From Ignavibacteriae bacterium HGW-Ignavibacteriae-4 (GTDB taxonomy: Bacteria > Bacteroidota > Ignavibacteria > Kapaibacteriales > UBA2268): 59,997 nucleotides of DNA. Below the pieces are notes generated by a model, which made no database searches, was not told where the DNA came from, and saw only the letters and a program-made list of their open reading frames with translations. The stretch's first letter is position 1, and each line of letters begins with the position of its first letter. The translations under genes and the position numbers were made by a program. Positions 33,906 to 55,295 of this stretch are shown piece after piece. The stretch is from positions 1 through 59,997 of the forward strand of contig PGYR01000022.1 in the NCBI GenBank assembly GCA_002839765.1. Direction: 5' to 3'.

Positions 33906-35021
33906 ATGAGCATAGAAGTAGTTAAGTTCAATACAAGAAATAGACCTGAGTTTGTGAAAGAATTAAGAATGAGGGTAAATTCATATTTTAAAGAGAAAGG
34001 CATATCCAAGTACGCTAATACAGAAATGAAAGTCAAAACAATAGTTATGATTTCATTGTATTTCGTTCCTTTTATATTGATGCTTACTGGTGTAGTGAGC
34101 GGCTTTTTACCAATTTTCCTGATGTGGGTTCTGATGAGCTTTGGTATGTCGGGTATAGGGCTATCTGTTATGCATGATGCCAATCACGGAGCCTATTCGC
34201 AGAACGCAAAGGTTAATAAGACTTTAGGCTTTTTGGTGAATTTCCTTGGTGGATATCATGTTAATTGGAAAATTCAACACAATGTGTTGCACCATTCTTT
34301 CACTAACGTTGTTGGTCACGACGACGATATAGAAAGTAATCTTATGCGATTATCTCCTAATCAAGACCGCAAGAAAATATTCAAATTCCAAGCTTATTAT
34401 GCCCCATTCCTATACGGATTATTAACTTTAAATTGGCTAATACTAAAAGACTTTATGCAAGTATATAAGTACAATAAGGAAAAACTATTAGCTGGTCAAA
34501 AATTATCAATAAAGAAAGCAACGACAGAAGTTATAATCAATAAAATCTGGTATTTGGCTATAACTCTTGTTTTGCCAATGCTAGTTGTAGATTTGCCATG
34601 GTGGCAAATACTAATTGGATTTGTTTCTATGCACTTCTTATCAGGAATTTTGCTTTCCTTCATCTTCCAATTAGCACATGTAATAGAAGAGACTGAATTC
34701 GTGAAACCAGATGAGAATCTAACAATCGAAAACAACTGGGCTATACACCAATTGCTTACCACAGCTAATTTCGCTAAGAAAAGCAAACTACTATCATGGT
34801 ACATAGGTGGATTGAACTACCAAGTAGAGCATCACCTATTTCCGAATATATGCCATGTACACTATAAGAATATATCTAATGTAATAAAAGCAACTGCGGA
34901 AGAGTATGGTGTCCCATACTACGAGCATAGGACTCTATTCGGAGCTATCAAAAGTCATTTCACTTTGCTGAACCAATTGGGTACAGGCAAGTATGATGAA
35001 AAAATGGCAGCAGCTTCTTAA
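33906..35021 (+). CDS. Membrane fatty-acid desaturase (front-end type, no cytochrome b5)
   Basis: A 371-residue di-iron desaturase in the inner membrane that introduces a cis double bond into acyl chains. The three His boxes are HDANHG (about 91), HNVLHH (about 127) and QVEHH (about 310). The Gln in box 3 marks the delta-5/6-like linoleoyl-CoA desaturase subgroup found in many Bacteroidota. Hydrophobic segments lie at about 42-75, 160-180 and 210-255. There is no fused cytochrome b5, so ferredoxin or another donor is needed. The strong promoter and leader hairpin suggest regulation, perhaps by temperature or lipid state (inference). Confidence 0.9.
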   Translation: MSIEVVKFNTRNRPEFVKELRMRVNSYFKEKGISKYANTEMKVKTIVMISLYFVPFILMLTGVVSGFLPIFLMWVLMSFGMSGIGLSVMHDANHGAYSQNAKVNKTLGFLVNFLGGYHVNWKIQHNVLHHSFTNVVGHDDDIESNLMRLSPNQDRKKIFKFQAYYAPFLYGLLTLNWLILKDFMQVYKYNKEKLLAGQKLSIKKATTEVIINKIWYLAITLVLPMLVVDLPWWQILIGFVSMHFLSGILLSFIFQLAHVIEETEFVKPDENLTIENNWAIHQLLTTANFAKKSKLLSWYIGGLNYQVEHHLFPNICHVHYKNISNVIKATAEEYGVPYYEHRTLFGAIKSHFTLLNQLGTGKYDEKMAAAS

Positions 35022-40882: not shown

Positions 40883-41587
40883 ATGTATAATATTTTCGTT
40901 TCAACACTACTTTCGATTATTATAATTGCATCTGCTATGGCATCGAATGCACAAAGCTTAGAGAAGCTAACACCTGTCTCAGACCCATTCGAATATCAGA
41001 ATAAGTACTATCCCGTTTCCGTTGGTAACTATTGGAAAATGTTATACCTGACTCCAATGGGTAATGATAAATATGGAACTCTAGGCCATTACGAGTATAG
41101 AATTATAGAATACACTTTTGAAGAAATTTACTTTGGTGATTCATTAGCCTATATTCCTGTTTATAAGAAAGAAAGCAAATACTTTAGACCAAATTACTCT
41201 GTTTATGAGAGTGTTTCTTATACTTATTTGATTAAAACCAATGAAGGTATAATTGAATTTAAAAAGCCTCCAAGAAATAATAAGATTAAGCCATTTATTT
41301 TCATCCCTTCCGATAGTAGTTATGATTACTTATCTTTAGAATTAACAGGTAAATCAATAGAAAGAGGAATTGAGTTAAAAACTAGATTTTGGGAAATGAA
41401 TACTCTAAGAATAAATTATAGAGATAAAGATAATCTAGGTGGATTTTACTATTCAATAGATAAAGGTCATGTATATACTCAATTCTTTTATAAAGATAAC
41501 AATTCTAACTATCAAACCAATTTCTCTGATAATGAGACTTTTGAGCCCAGTTCTGAATTTATACTTAGTGAATTAAAAATAGAGTAA
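40883..41587 (+). CDS. Exported protein, tandem paralog 1 of 3
   Basis: A 234-residue protein with a signal peptide (FVSTLLSIIIIASAMASNAQS). The mature N-terminus LTPVSDPFEYQNKYYPVSVG is shared with the next two genes and is the family's best marker. Later shared blocks are EEIYFGDSLAYIPV, TYLIKTNEGIIEF and ELKTRFWEMNTLRINY. No known domain was recognised. The Tyr- and charge-rich beta pattern suggests a periplasmic or surface lipocalin-like or other beta fold (inference). Its stop TAA overlaps the ATA start proposed for paralog 2. Confidence 0.65.
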   Translation: MYNIFVSTLLSIIIIASAMASNAQSLEKLTPVSDPFEYQNKYYPVSVGNYWKMLYLTPMGNDKYGTLGHYEYRIIEYTFEEIYFGDSLAYIPVYKKESKYFRPNYSVYESVSYTYLIKTNEGIIEFKKPPRNNKIKPFIFIPSDSSYDYLSLELTGKSIERGIELKTRFWEMNTLRINYRDKDNLGGFYYSIDKGHVYTQFFYKDNNSNYQTNFSDNETFEPSSEFILSELKIE

Positions 41588-42252
41588 TAAAAACTATAAT
41601 ATTCATATTTGGAATAACACTTGTTAGTTCATGTGTCAAATATGTAAAGCTGGATAGCAGGCTAACTCCTGTCGAAAACCCCTTCGAATTTCAGAATGAA
41701 TATTACCCTATTACTGTCGGTAACTATTGGAGAATGACATCTGTCGGGCCATTTAGAGATACAAATTATGCACTAAATGGATTTTTCGAGCACAGAATAA
41801 TCGAATTCAAATATGAAGACATATATTTCGGAGATTCACTGGTCAGAATCCCAGTATTCAAGAAAGAGAATAAATTTTTTAAGCTCCATGAGAAAGAATA
41901 CGATGAAGTTAAGTATAGTTACCTGATAAAGACTAAGGAAGGAGTTATAGAATGTATAAAGCCACCGAGCGAAAATAAAATCGCTGCCCATTTATTCATA
42001 CCGACTGATAGTAGTTATGATGAGTTATCATTTGCAGTTACTGGAAGGAATATAGTCAGAGGTGTCGAGTTAAAAACTAAATTATGGGATATGAATACTG
42101 TTAGAATAAACTACGATGATGAATATAATATAGGCGGGATGTATTATTCTAAAAATAGAGGTCACGTATATACTAAGTTTTATAAAAAACCATATATGAA
42201 AAATGAAAGACCATTCGTTGAATTTGTTTTAAGTAAAATTCAAATTGAATGA
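41587..42252 (+). CDS. Lipoprotein, tandem paralog 2 of 3, non-AUG start
   Basis: Closely related to the gene at 40883 along its whole length (LTPVENPFEFQNEYYPITVG, EDIYFGDSLVRIPVF, ELKTKLWDMNTVRINYDDE). The first ATG, 41734, falls after the conserved N-terminal block. Reading upstream in frame reveals a complete lipoprotein signal, KTIIFIFGITLVSSC, directly after the ATA at 41587, which shares its A with the upstream TAA stop. The frame is closed by TGA at 41569, and only ATT (41572) or ATA (41587) could start it. The mature protein is anchored at Cys16. Function is unknown. Confidence 0.65.
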   Translation: MKTIIFIFGITLVSSCVKYVKLDSRLTPVENPFEFQNEYYPITVGNYWRMTSVGPFRDTNYALNGFFEHRIIEFKYEDIYFGDSLVRIPVFKKENKFFKLHEKEYDEVKYSYLIKTKEGVIECIKPPSENKIAAHLFIPTDSSYDELSFAVTGRNIVRGVELKTKLWDMNTVRINYDDEYNIGGMYYSKNRGHVYTKFYKKPYMKNERPFVEFVLSKIQIE

Positions 42253-42315
42253 GTGCTTAAAAGTATTCGAAGAACCCACATAAAATTATAAGAAACAACA
42301 TAGATAGAGTTTAAT

Positions 42316-42996
42316 ATGAAATATAATAGAAAAGTAATTACCGTTTTATTCTTTATAGGAATATTGATATTAACATCATGTTCTGCTTATGACAAAGCAA
42401 CGGATAATCTTACACCGGTTGACAACCCTATGGAATATCAGAATGCGTATTACCCAGTTGAGATTGGCGAAATTAACAAATTCAACCATTATGTAATTGA
42501 AGATAGTGTGAAGAAATTTATAAAAAGGTCTGAAAGAGAAGTTGTAGATTATCGTGATTCTGATATAAGATTAGGTAGAAGGATATTAAATATACCGGTA
42601 TTTAGAATAAAAGAACGAAACTATATCAACGATTCTCTAGTTTCCGAACAGGAAGAATATCTGATAAAGACGAAAGAAGGGATAGTTTTTACTCAGTATC
42701 TAAATGATAAAAAAAATATTCGATTGTTTCAATTCATACCGTCTTTACCTTCATATACTGCTCTCGGAGCTGATTTAAGAGATGGAGAGGTAAGCTATAA
42801 TGTTACCAAAGTGCCTTATCTTAAGGCTGGGAAGTTTATGAGAATAAGAACAAAGTTGAATATAGTTCAGTATAGTACGGTTTATGCTACTCAATACTAT
42901 GCTGAAGGAGTAGGATTAGTAGCTTTATTTGTAGAAGAATATGGCAATATTTTTGGTGTTACAGTACATGAGGATTATGATTTATTGGATAATTGA
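42316..42996 (+). CDS. Lipoprotein, tandem paralog 3 of 3
   Basis: A 226-residue lipoprotein (signal VITVLFFIGILILTSC, lipobox LTSC). It retains the family marker LTPVDNPMEYQNAYYPVEIG right after the lipobox region, and EEYLIKTKEGIVF, but the C-terminal half has diverged. It lies 63 bp after paralog 2 with its own start region. With the two upstream genes it forms a tandem triplication, of which this is the oldest or fastest-changing copy. Function is unknown. Confidence 0.65.
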   Translation: MKYNRKVITVLFFIGILILTSCSAYDKATDNLTPVDNPMEYQNAYYPVEIGEINKFNHYVIEDSVKKFIKRSEREVVDYRDSDIRLGRRILNIPVFRIKERNYINDSLVSEQEEYLIKTKEGIVFTQYLNDKKNIRLFQFIPSLPSYTALGADLRDGEVSYNVTKVPYLKAGKFMRIRTKLNIVQYSTVYATQYYAEGVGLVALFVEEYGNIFGVTVHEDYDLLDN

Positions 42997-43182: not shown

Positions 43183-43284
43183 CTTAACACTTTCTTAACA
43201 ATAGCTTCACTCTTACCAAACACTACTCATAACACAAGCCACATTTAACACAATCTTAACACAAGATTCAACATACCTTCAATC
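43183..43284 (+). promoter_or_regulatory. Two arrays of 11-bp-spaced TTAACA-type repeats (candidate Pho boxes)
   Basis: Array 1: CTTAACAC (43183), CTTAACAA (43194), CTTCACTC (43205). Array 2: TTTAACAC (43244), CTTAACAC (43255), ATTCAACA (43266), CTTCAATC (43277). Each octamer is followed by a 3-bp spacer, giving an exact 11-bp period. That is the geometry of PhoB/PhoP-family boxes, and TTAACA is the known PhoP half-site core. Array 2 ends 8 bp before a -7-like element, so it overlaps the -35 region as expected for PhoB-type activation. Regulator assignment is inference. Confidence 0.65.
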
Positions 43285-43292
43285 TAATATTA

Positions 43293-43300
43293 CAACTTTG
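43293..43300 (+). promoter_or_regulatory. -7-like element (CAACTTTG) before the TonB receptor operon
   Basis: CAACTTTG matches TAnnTTTG except at its first base. It sits just after the second repeat array. A transcript starting near 43307 would have a leader of about 258 nt before the receptor ATG at 43565. Confidence 0.45.
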
Positions 43301-43306
43301 CATTGT

Positions 43307-43564
43307 GTCAGAAAACGAAAACGATATTATTCAAGTGAAGCTCAAAAAGAATAAGATGTACTACTCAAATTCAGAAAAATTTTATGGTGGGAAGCAAACC
43401 CTGAACCGTCAGTATTGGTCTAGAAAAATTTCTAACAATATGCAATTCGGAGCTTCACAACTTAACGCGGATTTCGCGGTGAGCTTTCCTACCATCTTTA
43501 AATACGAAATTAATATAATTAATAATTCAAGTCAAACAAGTAATATAAAATGTGGAGCTCTAAA
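43307..43564 (+). other. Long 5' leader of the TonB receptor mRNA
   Basis: About 258 nt lie between the inferred transcription start and the receptor start. An 87-codon frame (GTG 43305) crosses it but has no ribosome site and its GTG would lie at the +1 position, so I do not call it a gene. The segment holds CGCGGATTTCGCGG near 43463. Its length alone suggests post-transcriptional control. The region 42997-43182 upstream is non-coding AT-rich DNA. Confidence 0.35.
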
Positions 43565-46420
43565 ATGAACTACTTGACTAAGATAATCTTACTATTCGGA
43601 GCTATGACGATAATGTCAATGTCTCTATTTTCACAAACGGGTACTCTATCTGGTAAAATAACAGACCAAGATTACGGCGACGCTATGATAGGCGCTACAG
43701 TACAAATCAAGGATACCAAGTTAGGTGCTATGACTAAAATAGATGGTAGCTATATCATCAAAAAAATCACTCCCGGGACTTACACGGTTACTTTCTCTTA
43801 TATCGGTTATGCAAAAACTGAAGTAAAAGATGTAATAATCAAAGCTGATGAAGTAACAAAAATAGATGTTGCACTGAAAACTGAATCTGGTATGAGCGAA
43901 GAGGTGTTAGTCACTGCTAAAGCTGTACAAGAAACAGGGGCAGCGCTTCTAAAAGAAAGACAAAAATCGCAATCATTCTCAGATGCAATTGGATCTAAAG
44001 AAATTTCTCGTGGTGGTGCTAGTGATGCTGCTTCTGCGATGAATAATGTAACTGGTGCATCGGTAGTGGACGGCAAGCACGTACTCATTCGTGGATTGGG
44101 AGACAGATATTCGAATACACAATTGAACGGTACAAGTTTACCAAGCTCTGATCCTGATAAAAAATCTGTTCAGCTAGATTTATTTCCTGCTGCTATGATA
44201 GAAAATATAGTAACAATCAAAACTGCTACTCCTGATAAACCTGGTGATTTCACGGGTGGTTCAGTTAATATTAAAACAAAATCTTTTCCCGATAAATTCA
44301 AAGCGGGATTATCTTTATCTTCAACTGCTAATTCAATAGTTACTGGGCAAGATGTATTAACTTACAACGGCTCTTCAACTGATTGGTTGGGTTTTGATAA
44401 TGGTAAAAGAAATGTCCCAGATGCGATTCAAAACTCTAATGGGATACCATCAGTAACTGAAGTCAGAAGCAAAAAGAAAGATACTGATGGATTGGGTGCT
44501 ACTAAGCTTAATGATTTATCAAATGCATTTGATTCGGAGATGGCACCAAGTATAACACAAGCTCCACTTAATGGGAAAATGTCACTTAATATGGGTGACC
44601 AATTCACAGTATTCGGCAATTCTATGGGTTATCTTGCTAGTTTGAGTTATGCAAACAATAACAACAACTATTCTGATGGGCAATTTGCAATTTACGAGCT
44701 GACTTCTGGCAGTGCTAATGAACTTAGATCAACTAAAATAATCAATGATTCTAAAAGCTCGTCAGAAGTAAACTGGGGAACTTTGGCTAATATAGCTTAT
44801 GACTTTACACCTACTGATCAAGTTAAATTCAACTTATTCTACAATCAATCTGGTGAAGCAGTTGCTCAAAGTATTTCTTACTATGATGAATACTACCCTG
44901 AGGCAAGTCAAATTCGCTCTAGCACATTAAAATATACTGAAAGAAATATACAATCATATCAACTATCTGGAGAACATAGCATAGCTTCTATTTCAAATGC
45001 AAAAGTTGAATGGAATGTTTCGACTGCAAATACTTTGCAAAATGAGCCAGATTTGCGTTTCTTTACTTACGAAATAAATAATATAGCAGGCACGGATACA
45101 ACATGGAGAATTGACGAAAATCACTATGACTTACCTACACGTTACTACAGAGATTTGCAAGAAAACTCTAACAATGCTAAACTTGATATTGAGATTCCTT
45201 TAACTGAAGCTATTGGTACTGCATTTAAACTAAAAACAGGATTTGCTTTCCAAGCGAAAGACAGAAATTTCAATCAGGATAGATATGTGATTGGTAAAGA
45301 CCATGATATGACATTCGACGGTAATGTAAATCAATTCGTCAAAGATAGTAGCGGTATTAGTGACTGGAAGTCAACCAATAACTTCAATTACTTTGGACTA
45401 TACATCGAAGATAGATTCGTACCAAAGGATGCTTACACAGGCAAAGAAGATATATCAGCTTTCTACGGAATGGTAGATGTGGAACTATTCACAGGAATGA
45501 GATTGATAGGTGGGGCTAGATTAGAAAGTACTGATATGTCTATCACGAGCAGAGATACATCACTACCAATAGCCGCAATCAACAAATCAGATTTATTACC
45601 TTCGATGAATGCTATATATAATCTTACTGAAAACCAGAACATCAGATTCGCTTATGGTAAGACATTAGCAAGACCTACTTTCAGGGAACTAGCTGATTTT
45701 GACTTCTTCGAATTTGTTGGTGGTTATACTTTCATCGGTAATCCGGATTTACAAAGAAGTTTGATTGACAACTTCGATATTCGTTGGGAATGGTTCATGA
45801 ATCCAGGTGAAATCTTATCAGTAAGTGGGTTTTACAAAGATTTCACGAACCCTATACAACGTGTTATAGTTAATGCAAATGGTAACGTACAGATGAGAAA
45901 TGTGGCTAGTGCAAGATTATACGGATTAGAGTTTGAAGCAAGAAAAAGTTTAGGATTTATATCTGCTCTCGAGAACTTCCAATTAGGTGTAAATGTAACT
46001 ATAGTTAATTCGATAGTTGATTTATCTGAAAGTGAATATCTCCTGAATAAATCTTATGACCCAAATGCTTCTCGTACAAGACAATTGCAAGGACAATCAC
46101 CTTATGTTATAAACTTAGATTTGGCTTATGTCAATTACGACCTAGGTTTAGATGCAGGACTTCACTTCAATGTATTCGGTGAGAGACTTTCTGATGTTAG
46201 TTTGGGTGGTACTCCAGACATTTTCGAACAACCACGTAATATGCTGAACTTTACTTTCAGCAAAAGATTAATAGACAATCTTAATCTTAAATTCACAGCT
46301 AGAAATTTACTTGATGCTCGAATGGAAAAACTATACCATTTCAAAGGCCAAGAATTTTACAATACACAATATGACTTAGGAACAACCCTTTCATTAGGCT
46401 TTTCTTATACATTTGAATAA
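43565..46420 (+). CDS. TonB-dependent outer-membrane receptor (SusC-type N-terminus)
   Basis: About 951 residues from the ATG at 43565, chosen because GGAG lies 7 nt before it; the ATG at 43550 adds five residues. The signal peptide (NYLTKIILLFGAMTIMSMSL) is followed by a carboxypeptidase-regulatory-like domain (about 28-110, GTLSGKITDQDYGDAMIGAT). The plug (about 130-240; VRIKG-type region HVLIRGLGDRYSNTQLNG) and a 22-strand barrel end in LSLGFSYTFE. It takes up a ligand across the outer membrane using TonB energy. There is no SusD partner; a secreted T9SS protein follows 39 bp downstream. The candidate Pho boxes upstream suggest a phosphorus-containing ligand (inference). Confidence 0.9.
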   Translation: MNYLTKIILLFGAMTIMSMSLFSQTGTLSGKITDQDYGDAMIGATVQIKDTKLGAMTKIDGSYIIKKITPGTYTVTFSYIGYAKTEVKDVIIKADEVTKIDVALKTESGMSEEVLVTAKAVQETGAALLKERQKSQSFSDAIGSKEISRGGASDAASAMNNVTGASVVDGKHVLIRGLGDRYSNTQLNGTSLPSSDPDKKSVQLDLFPAAMIENIVTIKTATPDKPGDFTGGSVNIKTKSFPDKFKAGLSLSSTANSIVTGQDVLTYNGSSTDWLGFDNGKRNVPDAIQNSNGIPSVTEVRSKKKDTDGLGATKLNDLSNAFDSEMAPSITQAPLNGKMSLNMGDQFTVFGNSMGYLASLSYANNNNNYSDGQFAIYELTSGSANELRSTKIINDSKSSSEVNWGTLANIAYDFTPTDQVKFNLFYNQSGEAVAQSISYYDEYYPEASQIRSSTLKYTERNIQSYQLSGEHSIASISNAKVEWNVSTANTLQNEPDLRFFTYEINNIAGTDTTWRIDENHYDLPTRYYRDLQENSNNAKLDIEIPLTEAIGTAFKLKTGFAFQAKDRNFNQDRYVIGKDHDMTFDGNVNQFVKDSSGISDWKSTNNFNYFGLYIEDRFVPKDAYTGKEDISAFYGMVDVELFTGMRLIGGARLESTDMSITSRDTSLPIAAINKSDLLPSMNAIYNLTENQNIRFAYGKTLARPTFRELADFDFFEFVGGYTFIGNPDLQRSLIDNFDIRWEWFMNPGEILSVSGFYKDFTNPIQRVIVNANGNVQMRNVASARLYGLEFEARKSLGFISALENFQLGVNVTIVNSIVDLSESEYLLNKSYDPNASRTRQLQGQSPYVINLDLAYVNYDLGLDAGLHFNVFGERLSDVSLGGTPDIFEQPRNMLNFTFSKRLIDNLNLKFTARNLLDARMEKLYHFKGQEFYNTQYDLGTTLSLGFSYTFE

Positions 46421-46459
46421 ATATTTTTATTATAATATACTTTATTAGGAGTTTATAGA

Positions 46460-49400
46460 ATGCAAAAGTTACTACAATTGATCATAGCAATGATGATAGT
46501 AGGATATACATCACAAGCAGCAACTATTACAGTTAATGATAGTTGGATAAATGCAGGTGAAAAGAAGACAATGACGGCAGATAACATCTATGTTCTTGAC
46601 CGCTTCGTTTTCGTAGAAGAAGGCGCAGAACTATGGATAGAACCAGGGACAGTAATACAAGGTAAACCAGGACAAGAATCAAACGCATCGGCTTTAATTA
46701 TCGCTCGTGGTGGTAAAATTTATGCTGAAGGAACTCCAGACAAACCGATCATCTTCACATTCGAGGGAGATGATCCTTATGATAATACAGATTATCCAAT
46801 GGAAGAATCAGGACTATGGGGGGGACTAATAATATTAGGTAATGCTCCTACTAATAATCCAGAAACGGTTAGAAATATCGAAGGTATTCCTGAGAATAAC
46901 GAATTGGGTAAATACGGTGGTAACGACCCAATGGATAATTCTGGTGTTCTTCGCTATGTATCTATTAGACATGGTGGTTCCGATATTGGTGAAGGTAATG
47001 AAATCAATGGCCTTTCTTTGGGTGCTGTTGGCGCTGGAACTACTATAGAATATGTAGAAGTAATTTACAACAAAGATGATGGTTTTGAATTCTTCGGTGG
47101 TACAGTTAATACTAAGTATTTAGTATCTGCATTTAACGGAGATGATGCTTTTGACTATGACGAAGGATTCAACGGTAAAGGACAATTTTGGTTTGCTATC
47201 CAAGCACCAAACAGAGGAAACATGGGCGGAGAACACGACGGTGGTAACAAGCCTGATGACTCTCAACCTTATGCTAGACCTGTTATTTCTAACGTAACCT
47301 ACATCGGTTCTGGTGCTAATTCTGGTAACTCTAAATCTGCTGGTCTTATCCTAAGAGATAACGCTGGTGGTAAGTACTATAATTCAATCTTCACTGGCTT
47401 CACTACTTGGGGTCTTAATATAGAAGATTTGGAAAATGGTGAAGATTCGGGTAATAGATTAACTACCGGCGACCTTGCCCTAAAAAACAATATATGGTGG
47501 GATATAAATAGTAAAACTACACCTAGTTTGACTGATATCGCTCCTGATGTACCGGATACAGAGTCTGGTGGAAAGGTAATCAAAGGATACTCAATGCAAC
47601 CTGCTCGTGATTATCTCGCTAACCCAACAAATAACAATTGGATTACTAACCCAGGATTGTCAAGTATTGATAGAGGACAGAATGAACTTTTGAACCCAAC
47701 TCCGTCTGCTTCATCAGCAGCTGTAACTAGTCCAACTCTCAAAATTGGAGATAGTTTCTTCGATAATGTAGATTACATAGGTGCGTTTGCTCCTGGTGAT
47801 TTATGGTTCTCTCGTTGGACTGCTCTTTATTCATTTGACGTAACTCGTAAAATTGGTAAAAACACAATTACTGTTACAGATGATTGGATAAAAGCTGGTG
47901 AGAAAAAATGGTTTACAAACGATAACATTTATCTTTTAGACAGATTTGTATTTGTTGAAGAAGGTGCGGAATTATGGATAGAGCCTGGAACAATAATCCA
48001 AGGTAAACCAGGACAAGAATCAAACGCATCTGCACTGATCATCGCGCGTGGTGGTAAAATATATGCTAACGGAACTCCTTCTCAACCTATCATCTTTACA
48101 TTCGAAGGAGATGATCCTTATGACAATACAGATTATCCAATGGAAGAATCAGGACTTTGGGGTGGTCTAATATTATTAGGTAATGCACCTACTAATAATC
48201 CTGAGACAGTTAGAAATATCGAAGGTATTCCTGAGAATAATGAATTGGGTAAATACGGTGGTAACGACCCAATGGATAACTCAGGTGTTGTTAGATATGT
48301 ATCTATTCGTCACGGTGGTACGGATATTGGTGAAGGAAATGAGATTAATGGTCTTACTTTTGGAGCAGTTGGCGCAGGTACTACTATTGAATTCGTAGAA
48401 GTTCTTTATAACACTGACGATGGCTTTGAATGGTTTGGTGGTACAGTAAATACGAAATACTTAATCTCTGCTTTTAACGGTGACGATTCTTTTGATTACG
48501 ACGAAGGATTCAATGGTAAGGGACAATTTTGGTTAGGATTACAAGCTGCAAACAGAGGTAATATGAGTGGTGAGCACGATGGTGGAAATAAGCCAGATGA
48601 TTCGGCTCCTTATGCGATACCTCAAATCTCAAATGCTACTTACATTGGATCAGGTGCTAACTCTGGTAATTCTAAATCAATGGGACTAATATTCCGTGAT
48701 AATGCTGGTGGTAAATACTTTAATTCTATCCTAACAGAACAAACTGGTAAAGGTTTAGATATCGAAGATCTAGAGAACGGTCAAGATTCTGAATCAAGAT
48801 TAGCTAATGGTGATTTACATTTGCAAAATGTAATCTGGTGGAATATAGATGGTAAAGAAATGCCAACAATCAACGATATAGCTCCTGATGTACCAGATAC
48901 AGAATCAGGTGGAAAAACAATCAAAGGTTACTCACTACAATCTACTAGAGATTACTTGAATAACACTACTAATGCTAATAGAGTTGTAAATCCAAATATC
49001 GCTTCTATAAGCAGATTGGCTGATAGTTGGGGATTAGACCCTCGTCCAGCACAAGGTCCAGCTTGGTCAGCTGTAAAAGAATTATCTAATGATGGTTTCT
49101 ATACTCAAACTGATTACATCGGTGCATTTGGTAAAGGAAACTGGGCTGTTGATTGGACTGGTCTTAATACATTCAATGTAATCAAAACAAGCGGTGCAAT
49201 GAATCCGAGTAAAGAAGTCTTAACTTCGGTTAGTTGGAATAGCACAACAACAAATAGCAATGTTAACAATAATATCAAATTATATCCTAATCCAGTTGAA
49301 AAGCAAACAAACATAGAATTTGAATTGACAAATTCAACTATGGTGACTATGGATGTATATGATGCTACTGGTAACAGAATAGAAGGTTTAGTATCTAAGT

Positions 49401-49519
49401 ATATGACACAGGGTAACTGGGGTATTACTTGGACACCTAATAACTTGGTATCAGGTGCATACTTCATCCAAATGACTACAAACTACGGAACATTTACTCA
49501 GAAAGTAATAGTAAAATAA
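46460..49519 (+). CDS. Secreted T9SS protein with two near-identical ~447-residue repeats
   Basis: A 1019-residue exported protein in the receptor's operon; AGGAG lies 8 nt before the ATG. After a signal peptide (to about 20) come two tandem copies of one long domain, starting ITVNDSWINAGEKK (about 23) and ITVTDDWIKAGEKK (about 470). Each contains ELWIEPGT(V/I)IQGKPGQ, SALIIARGGKIYA and acidic motifs (EGDDPYDNTDYP, DDGFE(F/W)FGG, DYDEGFNGKGQFW) that look suited to Ca2+ or other cation binding in a beta-helix-like fold. The C-terminus (KLYPNPVEKQTNIEF...SGAYFIQM...KVIVK) is a T9SS sorting domain. A surface partner of the receptor that captures or processes its ligand is inference. Confidence 0.85.
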   Translation: MQKLLQLIIAMMIVGYTSQAATITVNDSWINAGEKKTMTADNIYVLDRFVFVEEGAELWIEPGTVIQGKPGQESNASALIIARGGKIYAEGTPDKPIIFTFEGDDPYDNTDYPMEESGLWGGLIILGNAPTNNPETVRNIEGIPENNELGKYGGNDPMDNSGVLRYVSIRHGGSDIGEGNEINGLSLGAVGAGTTIEYVEVIYNKDDGFEFFGGTVNTKYLVSAFNGDDAFDYDEGFNGKGQFWFAIQAPNRGNMGGEHDGGNKPDDSQPYARPVISNVTYIGSGANSGNSKSAGLILRDNAGGKYYNSIFTGFTTWGLNIEDLENGEDSGNRLTTGDLALKNNIWWDINSKTTPSLTDIAPDVPDTESGGKVIKGYSMQPARDYLANPTNNNWITNPGLSSIDRGQNELLNPTPSASSAAVTSPTLKIGDSFFDNVDYIGAFAPGDLWFSRWTALYSFDVTRKIGKNTITVTDDWIKAGEKKWFTNDNIYLLDRFVFVEEGAELWIEPGTIIQGKPGQESNASALIIARGGKIYANGTPSQPIIFTFEGDDPYDNTDYPMEESGLWGGLILLGNAPTNNPETVRNIEGIPENNELGKYGGNDPMDNSGVVRYVSIRHGGTDIGEGNEINGLTFGAVGAGTTIEFVEVLYNTDDGFEWFGGTVNTKYLISAFNGDDSFDYDEGFNGKGQFWLGLQAANRGNMSGEHDGGNKPDDSAPYAIPQISNATYIGSGANSGNSKSMGLIFRDNAGGKYFNSILTEQTGKGLDIEDLENGQDSESRLANGDLHLQNVIWWNIDGKEMPTINDIAPDVPDTESGGKTIKGYSLQSTRDYLNNTTNANRVVNPNIASISRLADSWGLDPRPAQGPAWSAVKELSNDGFYTQTDYIGAFGKGNWAVDWTGLNTFNVIKTSGAMNPSKEVLTSVSWNSTTTNSNVNNNIKLYPNPVEKQTNIEFELTNSTMVTMDVYDATGNRIEGLVSKYMTQGNWGITWTPNNLVSGAYFIQMTTNYGTFTQKVIVK
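46526..49200 (+). repeat. 1341-bp internal direct duplication within the T9SS gene
   Basis: Copy 1 spans about 46526-47866 and copy 2 starts at about 47867, an offset of 447 codons. Many stretches are identical at DNA level, for example CCAGGACAAGAATCAAACGC in both, while third positions differ elsewhere. The boundaries are approximate. Confidence 0.8.
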
Positions 49520-49550
49520 TTTCCAAGCATACGCTACTACGATTTGAAAA

Positions 49551-49578
49551 AGGTCGCTTTCTTAACAGAGAGCGACCT
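49551..49578 (+). terminator. Terminator of the TonB receptor operon
   Basis: AGGTCGCT...AGCGACCT, an 8-bp perfect stem extended by TC/GA, is followed by seven T. It lies 31 bp after the stop at 49519. Confidence 0.9.
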
Positions 49579-49611
49579 TTTTTTATTTTAATCTCATTAT
49601 ATTGAACTACA

Positions 49612-49930: not shown

Positions 49931-51124
49931 TTATTTAATCAAGCCAAACTCTTTTCCAACTTCACCAAATACTTCAAGTATTTTGTCTAGGTGATGTCTT
50001 TCATGAGTCGCCATATAGCTAGTACGCATCATACTCATAGTAGGAGGTACTCCTGGAGGTATGAACGCATTTACAAACACTCCTGCGTCGTATAGTCGTC
50101 TCCACATTAGTAGAGATTTTTCTACATCGCCAACGATTACAGGAACTATCGCCGTTAAGCTATCAAGCACTTCGAATCCAAGCTCATTGAATCCAGCTCG
50201 CATATAATCTGCATTTTCTTTCAATCGTGTTACTCTTTCAGGCTCTCTTTCCAATACATTAAGTGCTGCTAATGTAGCGGCACAAGACGATGGTGTAGGG
50301 CTAGCACTAAATATAAGTGCGGGAGAAGTGTGTTTTACAAAGTCTATTACTTTACTCGGGCCGGCTACGAAGCCACCCAAAGACGCAAAAGTCTTAGAGA
50401 ATGTACCCATTATCATATCAGTTTCTTCTACTAATCCGTAGTGGCTAGAAGTACCACGACCACCAACTCCTACAACTCCAGTAGCATGAGCATCATCTAT
50501 CAATACTCTTGCATTATATCTCTTCGCTAATTCTAATAATTCAGGTAAGTGAACTAGTTCTCCAGTAACTGAAAATACACCATCAGATACTAATAGTTTA
50601 CCAGCATCCTTAGGCAAATTACTAAGTACTCTTTCTAGGTCATTCATGTCGTTGTGCTTGTAGCGTACTAAGTCAACGAATGCACCTTTGGCCATCATAG
50701 CGCCATTTATAAGACAAGCGTGATTCTCCTTGTCCATTATTATATATTCACCTTTTACAGGCAAAGCAGAGATAGTACCAATACCAGTTTGGTATCCCGT
50801 ACTGAATAGCAATACTTCTTCGAACCCTAAGAATTTAGCTAATCTGTCCTCTAACTCAATATGTAAATCTAATGTACCCGTTAAGTATCTAGAACCCGAA
50901 CAGCCAGTACCGTATTTTTCTATTGCTTTTATTGCTGCTTCCCTTACTTCGGGATGCGCCGTTAGTCCGAGGTAGTTGTTGGAGCCAGCCATAATTACTT
51001 TACGGCCTTCCATACTTACAACTGGACCTTCATTCTCTTCTACAGCTCGAAAGTAGGGATATATCCCTTTCTCTTTTGCTTCATCTGCTACATGAAAACT
51101 ATACGCTTTGTCGAATAAATCCAC
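49931..51124 (-). CDS. spt: Serine palmitoyltransferase (alpha-oxoamine synthase family)
   Basis: A 397-residue PLP enzyme that condenses L-serine with a fatty acyl-CoA to 3-ketosphinganine, the first step of sphingolipid synthesis. The N-terminal block [13 protein letters not shown] is characteristic of bacterial SPT rather than KBL or BioF. The substrate block [34 protein letters not shown], the Asp in [13 protein letters not shown] and the PLP Lys in [15 protein letters not shown] are intact. Glycine C-acetyltransferase is the main alternative. A fatty-acid 2-hydroxylase-like gene lies 3.6 kb away (54681), which supports the sphingolipid reading. Confidence 0.85.
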
Positions 51125-54680: not shown

Positions 54681-55295
54681 ATGAAAGAAAAACACTTTAT
54701 ATCAAATAAGAACGAATCGGTTCGTATGTTCAAATGGAACATAATCGAGGCATTGTCTAAGACGCATTGGACTTTGCCGGTTATTGTTTATTTGCCTATT
54801 ATTTCTTACTTTTTTTACTTGGGATTTAGCAATGATATGAGCATAGTTGATTCTGGACTTATGCTAGTATTAGGCCTATTCGTGTGGACATTTGCGGAGT
54901 ATTTTTTGCATCGCTTTGTCTTTCACTACGAACCGAAAACGGATTGGGGCAAGCGATTACACTGGCTAATGCACGGAGTACATCACGATTACCCACAAGA
55001 CGCTAAAAGATTAGTACTACCACCAGGTTTGAGTCTTATCTTTTCTACTATACTTTTTCTATTTTTCTATTTACTTGTGCCAATACCGAGTTTATTCCCA
55101 TATTTCGGTGGGTTTCTATTAGGGTATTTGGTATATGATGTAGGGCATTATGCTATGCACCATTTCTCTTTCAAAAGCAGCATATTCAAGAAGATAAAAC
55201 TCCACCACATGAAGCACCACTACGTAAAACCACACGAGGGCTACGGCGTTAGCTCACCACTTTGGGATATTATATTCCGAACTAGAGGGAAGTGA
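54681..55295 (+). CDS. Fatty-acid 2-hydroxylase-like membrane enzyme
   Basis: A 204-residue integral membrane di-iron enzyme of the fatty-acid hydroxylase superfamily. Four hydrophobic segments are present. The His motifs follow the FA2H/SCS7 order: EYFLHRFVFH (about 76-85), HGVHHDYPQDAKRLVLPP, HYAMHH and LHHMKHHYVKPHEG then GYGVSSPLWD. FA2H hydroxylates C2 of the fatty acid amide-linked in sphingolipids. With the serine palmitoyltransferase nearby, a role in making 2-hydroxy sphingolipids is likely. Carotenoid or sterol hydroxylase is less likely, because RLVLPP and SSPLWD are FA2H hallmarks. Confidence 0.82.
   Translation: MKEKHFISNKNESVRMFKWNIIEALSKTHWTLPVIVYLPIISYFFYLGFSNDMSIVDSGLMLVLGLFVWTFAEYFLHRFVFHYEPKTDWGKRLHWLMHGVHHDYPQDAKRLVLPPGLSLIFSTILFLFFYLLVPIPSLFPYFGGFLLGYLVYDVGHYAMHHFSFKSSIFKKIKLHHMKHHYVKPHEGYGVSSPLWDIIFRTRGK

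Follow-up and report, generated by a model that had tools for sequence, protein, structure and literature searches.

The 59,997-nucleotide stretch of Ignavibacteriae bacterium HGW-Ignavibacteriae-4 analysed here (the window; contig C100 of a 110-contig, 3.36-Mb assembly, genome G000 in the numbering of genomes, G, contigs, C, and loci, L, used below) carries a two-gene operon that encodes a TonB-dependent outer-membrane receptor and a 1019-residue partner protein, and that is preceded by two arrays of direct repeats. Very probably, this operon is an uptake pair under phosphate-starvation (Pho) control, running as proposed below from a PhoB-type switch through to substrate hand-over. The features that carry this reading were all computed: the arrays and their phase with a -7-like promoter element, the occurrence of such arrays ahead of phosphate genes in related genomes, the conserved gene pair and the predicted fold of the partner. 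The pair is not new in kind, as ElpS/Cc0171 and Fjoh_0545/0546 are published; it differs from them in a predicted other route of surface anchoring and in a repeated domain.

The first array comprises three octamers (TTAACACT at 43184, TTAACAAT at 43195 and TTCACTCT at 43206) and the second comprises four (TTAACACA at 43245 and again at 43256, TTCAACAT at 43267 and TTCAATCT at 43278). The 11-bp steps are exact inside both arrays, the first octamer of array 2 starts 39 bp after the last one of array 1 does, and all seven positions given in an earlier sequence-only reading were reproduced. A window-wide scan for a TTAACA pair with at most one mismatch agrees with this period: at 11 bp it returned two matches on the forward strand, both in the arrays, and none on the reverse strand, while periods of 7-10 and 13-15 gave zero matches and period 12 a single one, at 43256. 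The exact sequence TTAACANNNNNTTAACA occurs four times in the 3.36-Mb genome, two of these copies being within the arrays. Downstream of array 2 stands the octamer CAACTTTG, which differs by one base from TANNTTTG; its -7 label follows the Bacteroidota -7 consensus. The arrangement resembles the PHO box of PhoB/PhoP, which is made of two 11-nt direct repeats placed head to tail (PMC4415409). It differs from that box in its TTAACA/GTAACA core, in often exceeding two repeats and in being held at a constant helical phase to a -7 element of the Bacteroidota type.

The relatives compared were 123 genomes of the order, and array ranking used 20 relatives plus the window (21 loci), with ~40,000 positions ranked per locus and 120,000 in the window. 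A weighted three-repeat score put the array before the receptor gene first in its locus in 18/21 cases and at ranks 4, 9 and 269 in the others, hence at rank 9 or better in 20/21. The weights of this score, like those used for the pst loci and for the -7 phase, were chosen after the arrays had been seen. A repeat of the test free of those weights, using the plain TTAACA hexamer with ties counted in favour, gave ranks 1-3 at period 11 in 19/21 loci. The same ranks were reached in 2-6 loci at periods 7-10 and 12-15, in 7 on the opposite strand, and in 6, 2, 4 and 8 at period 11 with the control hexamers ACAATT, TACAAT, ATCAAT and CATTAA, respectively; AACATT, which overlaps the TTAACA repeats, reached them in 14. 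Some genomes carry GTAACA repeats in place of TTAACA. Hexamer scoring of 450-bp upstream regions against single-base shuffles yielded p<=0.05 in 26/39 forward and 6/39 reverse (two loci with short upstreams are omitted, and one of the 39, L112, precedes another receptor fragment rather than the pair).

The spacing between repeats and promoter is likewise constrained. Of 34 promoters within score limits, out of 39 examined, 27 have the -7 octamer at phase 4 (mod 11), four at phase 5, two at phase 3 and one at phase 10, compared with 7% at phase 4 when the downstream sequence was shuffled. Repeat register and octamer are separated by 37, 48 or 59 bp in the main class, and the four promoters of the window genus, for which the second array was chosen by hand, all stand at phase 4. 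A blind scan of the 123 genomes with the pattern TAACA-N6-TAACA-N(18-44)-TANNTTTG returned 66 rows in 37 genomes (four being second rows of one place) versus 24 for the backward pattern, and in-phase gaps of 20, 31 or 42 were found in 38/66 rows versus 7.3 expected, a figure uncorrected for genome relatedness. Loci were available for 30 rows, and downstream open reading frames (ORFs) were scanned for 11 of these, plus one earlier. The in-phase matches include one before a 373-aa gene that follows the partner in G092, as in G090, and, by position, those at G090 and G096 (C5) precede pair receptors. A near-phase match (gap 21) precedes the receptor of the G070 pair, and gyrB and an S49 peptidase gene lie downstream of out-of-phase matches.

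Several of the arrays found by pattern stand before phosphate genes: PstS lies directly behind a phase-locked array in G071, a PHO4 transporter behind a near-phase array (gap 21) in G075, a porin O/P behind an in-phase array in G060 and a Na/Pi cotransporter behind an array in G085. A three-repeat pattern applied to 30 genomes gave 5 rows at pair receptors, and the six near ORFs scanned among its 23 non-pair places encode a Na/Pi cotransporter, a porin O/P, two TonB receptors, an Omp28-like protein and a phosphofructokinase whose gene diverges from pst. Strong PstS matches (>115 bits), excluding one inside the G039 pair locus, define 20 pst loci in 19 genomes. An array of rank 3 or better precedes PstS, or lies up to two genes ahead of it, in 7/20 (rank 1 in G090, G010, G017 and G007, rank 2 in G029 and G043, rank 3 in G005), where ~1 would be expected by estimate; the gene ahead of PstS in G010 and G017 encodes a porin O/P. 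Scanning the sequence immediately ahead of pstS with the plain hexamer gave mostly negative results, and in the wider loci arrays were found before the gene preceding pstS in some. The G090 locus reads array, receptor, partner, array, a 368-aa family-less gene, PstS, PstC, an unscanned ORF where PstA would stand, then PstB, PhoU and a kinase of PnpS/PhoR-like type that scores under its cut-off; the pst cluster has an array of its own. In G039, a porin-like gene (under the Pfam cut-off), PstS and a 97-aa ORF precede receptor and partner. Array rank, period, -7 phase, the arrays before phosphate genes and the G090 cluster thus point, from sequence, to the Pho regulation that had been proposed for the operon, including its PhoB/PhoP-box layout of head-to-tail 11-nt repeats fixed relative to the -7 element.

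The gene pair is widely conserved. Partner homologues with 1-4 domain copies were found in 100/123 genomes of the order, and a phylum-wide profile scan matched 307/395 genomes, although weak matches (~1e-15) may reflect the type IX secretion system (T9SS) tail alone. Partner loci examined numbered 44, of which 41 are distinct (L079-L081 repeat L121, L120 and L122). A related receptor gene lies upstream on the same strand, 0 to ~460 bp away, in 39/41 (one cut by a contig end); of the remaining loci, L082 is on a contig too short to judge and L112 of G098 has no adjacent receptor in the stretch taken. Within 20-kb loci the pair is adjacent in 20/20, while any other ORF cluster is common to at most 4. 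A phylogenetic tree separated 18 pair receptors, from Bacteroidota, Marinimicrobia and Proteobacteria and with those next to T2SS (type II secretion system) genes in Sphingomonas and Indioceanicola among them, from 7 other receptors of the window's genome with 100/100 support; these seven have long branches and come from 19 TonB receptor matches in that genome. More distantly, the partner shares 38.7% identity over 204 aa with a Sphingomonas protein and 38% over 318 aa with one of Indioceanicola. The Sphingomonas and Indioceanicola plasmids present the order homologue, TonB receptor, gsp genes of the T2SS, and a TonB receptor stands beside 6/7 plasmid homologues viewed, the one in Marinobacter being without.

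The receptor matched as a TonB receptor with a carboxypeptidase-like domain, a plug and a barrel, and no SusD domain was found in the pair or in the 16 neighbouring window proteins scanned. A SusCD assignment was rejected on this ground and because the receptor scores 56.8 against a SusC/RagA cut-off of 368. The partner bears the two acidic, beta-helix-like domains expected of it: they comprise 442 and 441 aa, are 75% identical and contain 61-62 Asp and Glu versus 30 Lys and Arg in each. At its N-terminus a lipobox cysteine is absent, and a T9SS tail is present in its place. A model of domain 1 built on a 12-row alignment (mean predicted local distance difference test score of 77, predicted template modelling score of 0.85) is a beta-helix, predicted to be of the parallel kind. 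Structural alignment with VIA-align gave Z ~22 to alginate epimerases, tailspikes and NosD, and ~19-20 to polygalacturonases, while Foldseek with the same model returned zero matches at E<=0.001. Searched by sequence against the PDB, the partner gave either no hits or matches to T9SS tails, to a single uncharacterised protein and to unrelated chains. The shared fold does not indicate function.

These data bear on a tentative but quite plausible alternative, in which the unit is Pho-regulated and the surface protein, instead of being a binding cap, acts as an enzyme (a phosphoesterase or a beta-helix that cuts glycans) and frees phosphorus outside the cell, with the receptor importing a product. 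Epimerases, lyases and hydrolases of the beta-helix type match the predicted fold (VIA Z ~18-22), and the invariant partner acids, DD..E and DD..D.D, ~22 residues apart, could hold a metal. Tailspikes and NosD, however, have the same fold, and family profile scans matched the partner to no enzyme family. ElpS of Caulobacter crescentus speaks on both sides: its secretion accompanies higher alkaline phosphatase activity in culture supernatants, but an activity of ElpS itself is not demonstrated in the available part of the published account (PMC2996285).

ElpS is made under phosphate starvation (PMC2996285), and TonB receptors and the T2SS are among the phosphate-responsive functions of the Caulobacter PhoB regulon (PMC11208175). 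The window pair resembles ElpS-Cc0171 in coupling a surface protein to a TonB receptor, and partner homologues follow the Caulobacter order in Sphingomonas and Indioceanicola. It differs in that ElpS is a lipoprotein released with help from the T2SS, with the partner gene first and the receptor reported as constitutive, while here the receptor gene comes first and the partner has a T9SS tail and a duplicated domain; the comparison with ElpS was made on gene order and published description. In Flavobacterium johnsoniae, the lipoproteins FI, FII and FIII are reported to be ElpS-related and induced by low phosphate, FI being the most abundant exoprotein of phosphate-starved cells. FII, tagged IPR011050, lies beside a TonB-dependent transporter (TBDT) in the phoBR cluster, Fjoh_0545/0546 are low-phosphate-induced counterparts, and two PUSIII T9SS-domain proteins are likewise induced (PMC8115612). 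The TBDT-then-surface-protein order of PUSIII/PUSIV is that of the window pair. FI-FIII, in contrast, are lipoproteins, whereas the window partner is itself T9SS-tailed and of a kind with 1-4 domain copies (the comparison rests on description, not on Fjoh sequences). With SusCD/PusCD, of which PusCD is induced by low phosphate in Flavobacterium (PMC8115612), the pair shares an outer-membrane TonB receptor and a surface partner, but it lacks the SusD domain and its receptor falls far below the SusC/RagA threshold. Judged from sequence, the pair is therefore a variant of the low-phosphate ElpS/FI/FII kind, predicted to be displayed by the T9SS and varying from one to four domain copies. Neither a Pho promoter in Ignavibacteriota nor a T9SS form of the ElpS kind was found in the open-licence literature.

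Several results weigh against Pho control. Strong arrays are missing from 13/20 pst loci, and in the window's own genome the exact repeat pair 83 bp upstream of the PHO4 transporter gene (745 aa), whose 17 bases are identical to the start of array 1, is reversed relative to the gene. The expectation that the arrays would precede known Pho genes holds for part of the relatives and not for those 13 loci; in the window's genome the PHO4 gene offers the one case, with this reversed box. One further exact TTAACANNNNNTTAACA copy sits in a coding stretch. PhoU was not found in the window's genome, and its sole PstS-like gene scores 39 bits, which passes the Pfam cut-off, and 42.7 of the 206.6 required by the NCBIfam PstS model. 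The PhoB and PnpS matches (225.3 of 296.2 and 365.6 of 400 bits) lie below the NCBIfam curated cut-offs, though these are still the best families for both proteins. The pair has a weak array or none in G001, G108, G015, G046 and the Marinimicrobia loci L083 and L084; conservation of the pair without boxes had been named beforehand as a sign against the proposal. In-phase matches also precede genes for pyruvate phosphate dikinase (PPDK; G083), an S41 peptidase (G095) and three family-less proteins. The blind scan gave zero matches in the window genus because the -7 element there is CAACTTTG. In Caulobacter, the receptor gene cc0171 is reported not to be phosphate-regulated, and its loss leaves ElpS going (PMC2996285). 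Finally, raw counts show no enrichment: one-mismatch repeats number 47 in the window's genome versus 75 for the backward pattern, and the three-repeat pattern gave 29 rows versus 65 for its backward control. Presence was accordingly dropped as evidence in favour of tests of rank, period and phase, so that the argument rests on place and phase; the view that the arrays are chance repeats in AT-rich DNA, which those raw counts would favour, is practically negligible given how rank, period, phase and gene context agree between genomes, some with GTAACA-type repeats among them.

A further alternative, which we regard as improbable, is that the arrays are the binding sites of a different OmpR-type response regulator, one blind to phosphate, with the phosphate-gene neighbourhood then reflecting a partial overlap of regulons. 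OmpR-type regulators in general use tandem repeats of ~10-11 bp, and the window's genome encodes three, one of which, with its kinase, is PhoB/PhoR-like at the sub-threshold scores given above. A flavobacterial PhoP binds a TTTAACA motif, and a motif lies upstream of 583 candidate targets, for which the available part of the account names no phosphate theme (PMC9603813). The pattern-found arrays before PstS, PHO4, Na/Pi and porin O/P genes, and the G090 pair adjoining a pst-phoU-PhoR-like cluster, argue against this alternative.

In the Pho-regulated reading, scarce phosphate would activate a PhoB-type response regulator, which would occupy the 11-bp repeats in head-to-tail fashion, helically phased to the -7 element, and thereby turn on the two-gene operon. 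Its products would be a TonB-dependent outer-membrane receptor and a beta-helix protein displayed on the cell surface by the type IX system. The surface protein may capture or trim a phosphorus-bearing substrate and hand it to the receptor, replacing the SusD cap. We infer that the regulator is PhoB, that the operon responds to phosphate, and that display, substrate and hand-over are as described.

A leader of ~250 nt, overlooked in the earlier account of the region, separates the promoter from the receptor gene. Over 132 nt it is 94-96% identical between the window and three congeners, compared with 77-78% for the receptor gene; among the congeners themselves the excess is smaller (90-99% versus 85-98%). 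A 134-nt core has a minimum free energy of -32.7 (z -2.8), beating 198/200 shuffles, while the fold of the whole 240-nt leader is not unusual (z -1.0; 168/200). All 36 predicted pairs are kept in four genomes, with zero covariation, and 2 of 9 variable columns, judged by eye, are paired where 72/112 columns are (p 0.01), the structure having been derived from the same alignment. A covariance model matched once in each of the four window-genus genomes and in none of the other 119 under stricter filters (26 candidates per genome). A known riboswitch class was rejected, the sole Rfam match being a chance one (E 2, other strand) and two congeners having none. An upstream open frame was likewise dismissed as a conserved peptide: conservation at third codon positions is much like that at the first two, and 60 codons show 5-8 amino-acid-changing versus 0-3 synonymous codon changes. 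The leader is thus a candidate cis-acting RNA. It is rather doubtful, though conceivable, that a Pho-promoter-driven leader with an undescribed cis-acting RNA gating receptor translation, combined with the lack of a recognisable PhoU, marks a Pho response that has been remodelled to centre on capture at the outer membrane, by a tandem beta-helix displayed through the T9SS.

Features of the region are collected in Table 1. The receptor gene had been given a start at 43550; a GGAG motif and a signal-peptide-like start make 43565 the most likely one instead.

Table 1. Coordinates of the operon, its control region and related genes elsewhere (window positions unless a contig or locus is named)
Feature	Position	Strand	Remarks
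Array 1	43184..43213	+	three octamers, 11-bp steps; retained in 3 congeneric genomes
Array 2, candidate PhoB-type operator	43245..43285	+	four octamers, 11-bp steps; near-invariant across 4 congeneric genomes
-7-like element CAACTTTG	43293..43300	+	48 bp (4 mod 11) from array 2 start
Upstream open frame	43356..43568	+	70 codons (85 in congeners), stop overlaps ATG at 43565; probably not a selected feature
Conserved leader element, possibly structured RNA	43384..43495	+	
GGAG, probable ribosome-binding site	43554..43557	+	read from the sequence
TonB-dependent receptor	43565..46420	+	carboxypeptidase-like domain, plug and barrel
T9SS surface protein, partner of receptor	46460..49519	+	1019 aa
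Beta-helix domain copy 1	46523..47848	+	
Domain copy 2	47864..49186	+	75% identical to copy 1
T9SS type A sorting tail	49280..49516	+	residues 941-1019
Terminator-like hairpin 3' of second gene	49546..49583	+	consensus match only; region has 4 such sites vs 3.2 in shuffles
PhoB-like regulator of the window's genome	G000 C62:145623-146354		
Arsenate-reductase-like genes	L202 13199-13624; L204 13235-13660; L201 near 5391		

Just 5' of the promoter, three ORFs (40883-42996; 234, 172 and 226 aa) had zero Pfam or NCBIfam matches at E<=0.001. A serine-palmitoyltransferase-like enzyme, below its cut-off, adjoins the operon (49931-51124), and a fatty acid hydroxylase (54681-55295) and a desaturase (33906-35021) are also encoded in the window. 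The weak PstS-like gene of the window's genome lies near a contig end (G000; C62, C50). In Aureibacter (L270 14391-15590), only a few genes separate the homologous pair from one for a phosphatidylinositol-specific phospholipase C. An arsenate-reductase-like gene directly follows the pair in G116 and G043 and comes one ORF later in G119 (one was scanned and fell under the cut-off); such a gene beside the pair would fit arsenate entry by the phosphate route. The phase-locked array before PPDK (L309, G083) recurs in G084 and G085 (L310, L311) before same-sized, unscanned ORFs, a possible tie of phosphate/pyrophosphate (Pi/PPi) metabolism to the same regulon.

The series of one to four domain copies, the pst neighbourhood in G090 and the promoter phase rule offer handles on the role of the ElpS/FI/FII proteins. 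The phase rule, which places the -7 element at repeat register + 4 mod 11, would allow prediction of the Pho regulon in uncultured Ignavibacteriota-type genomes, including those where PhoU was not found.

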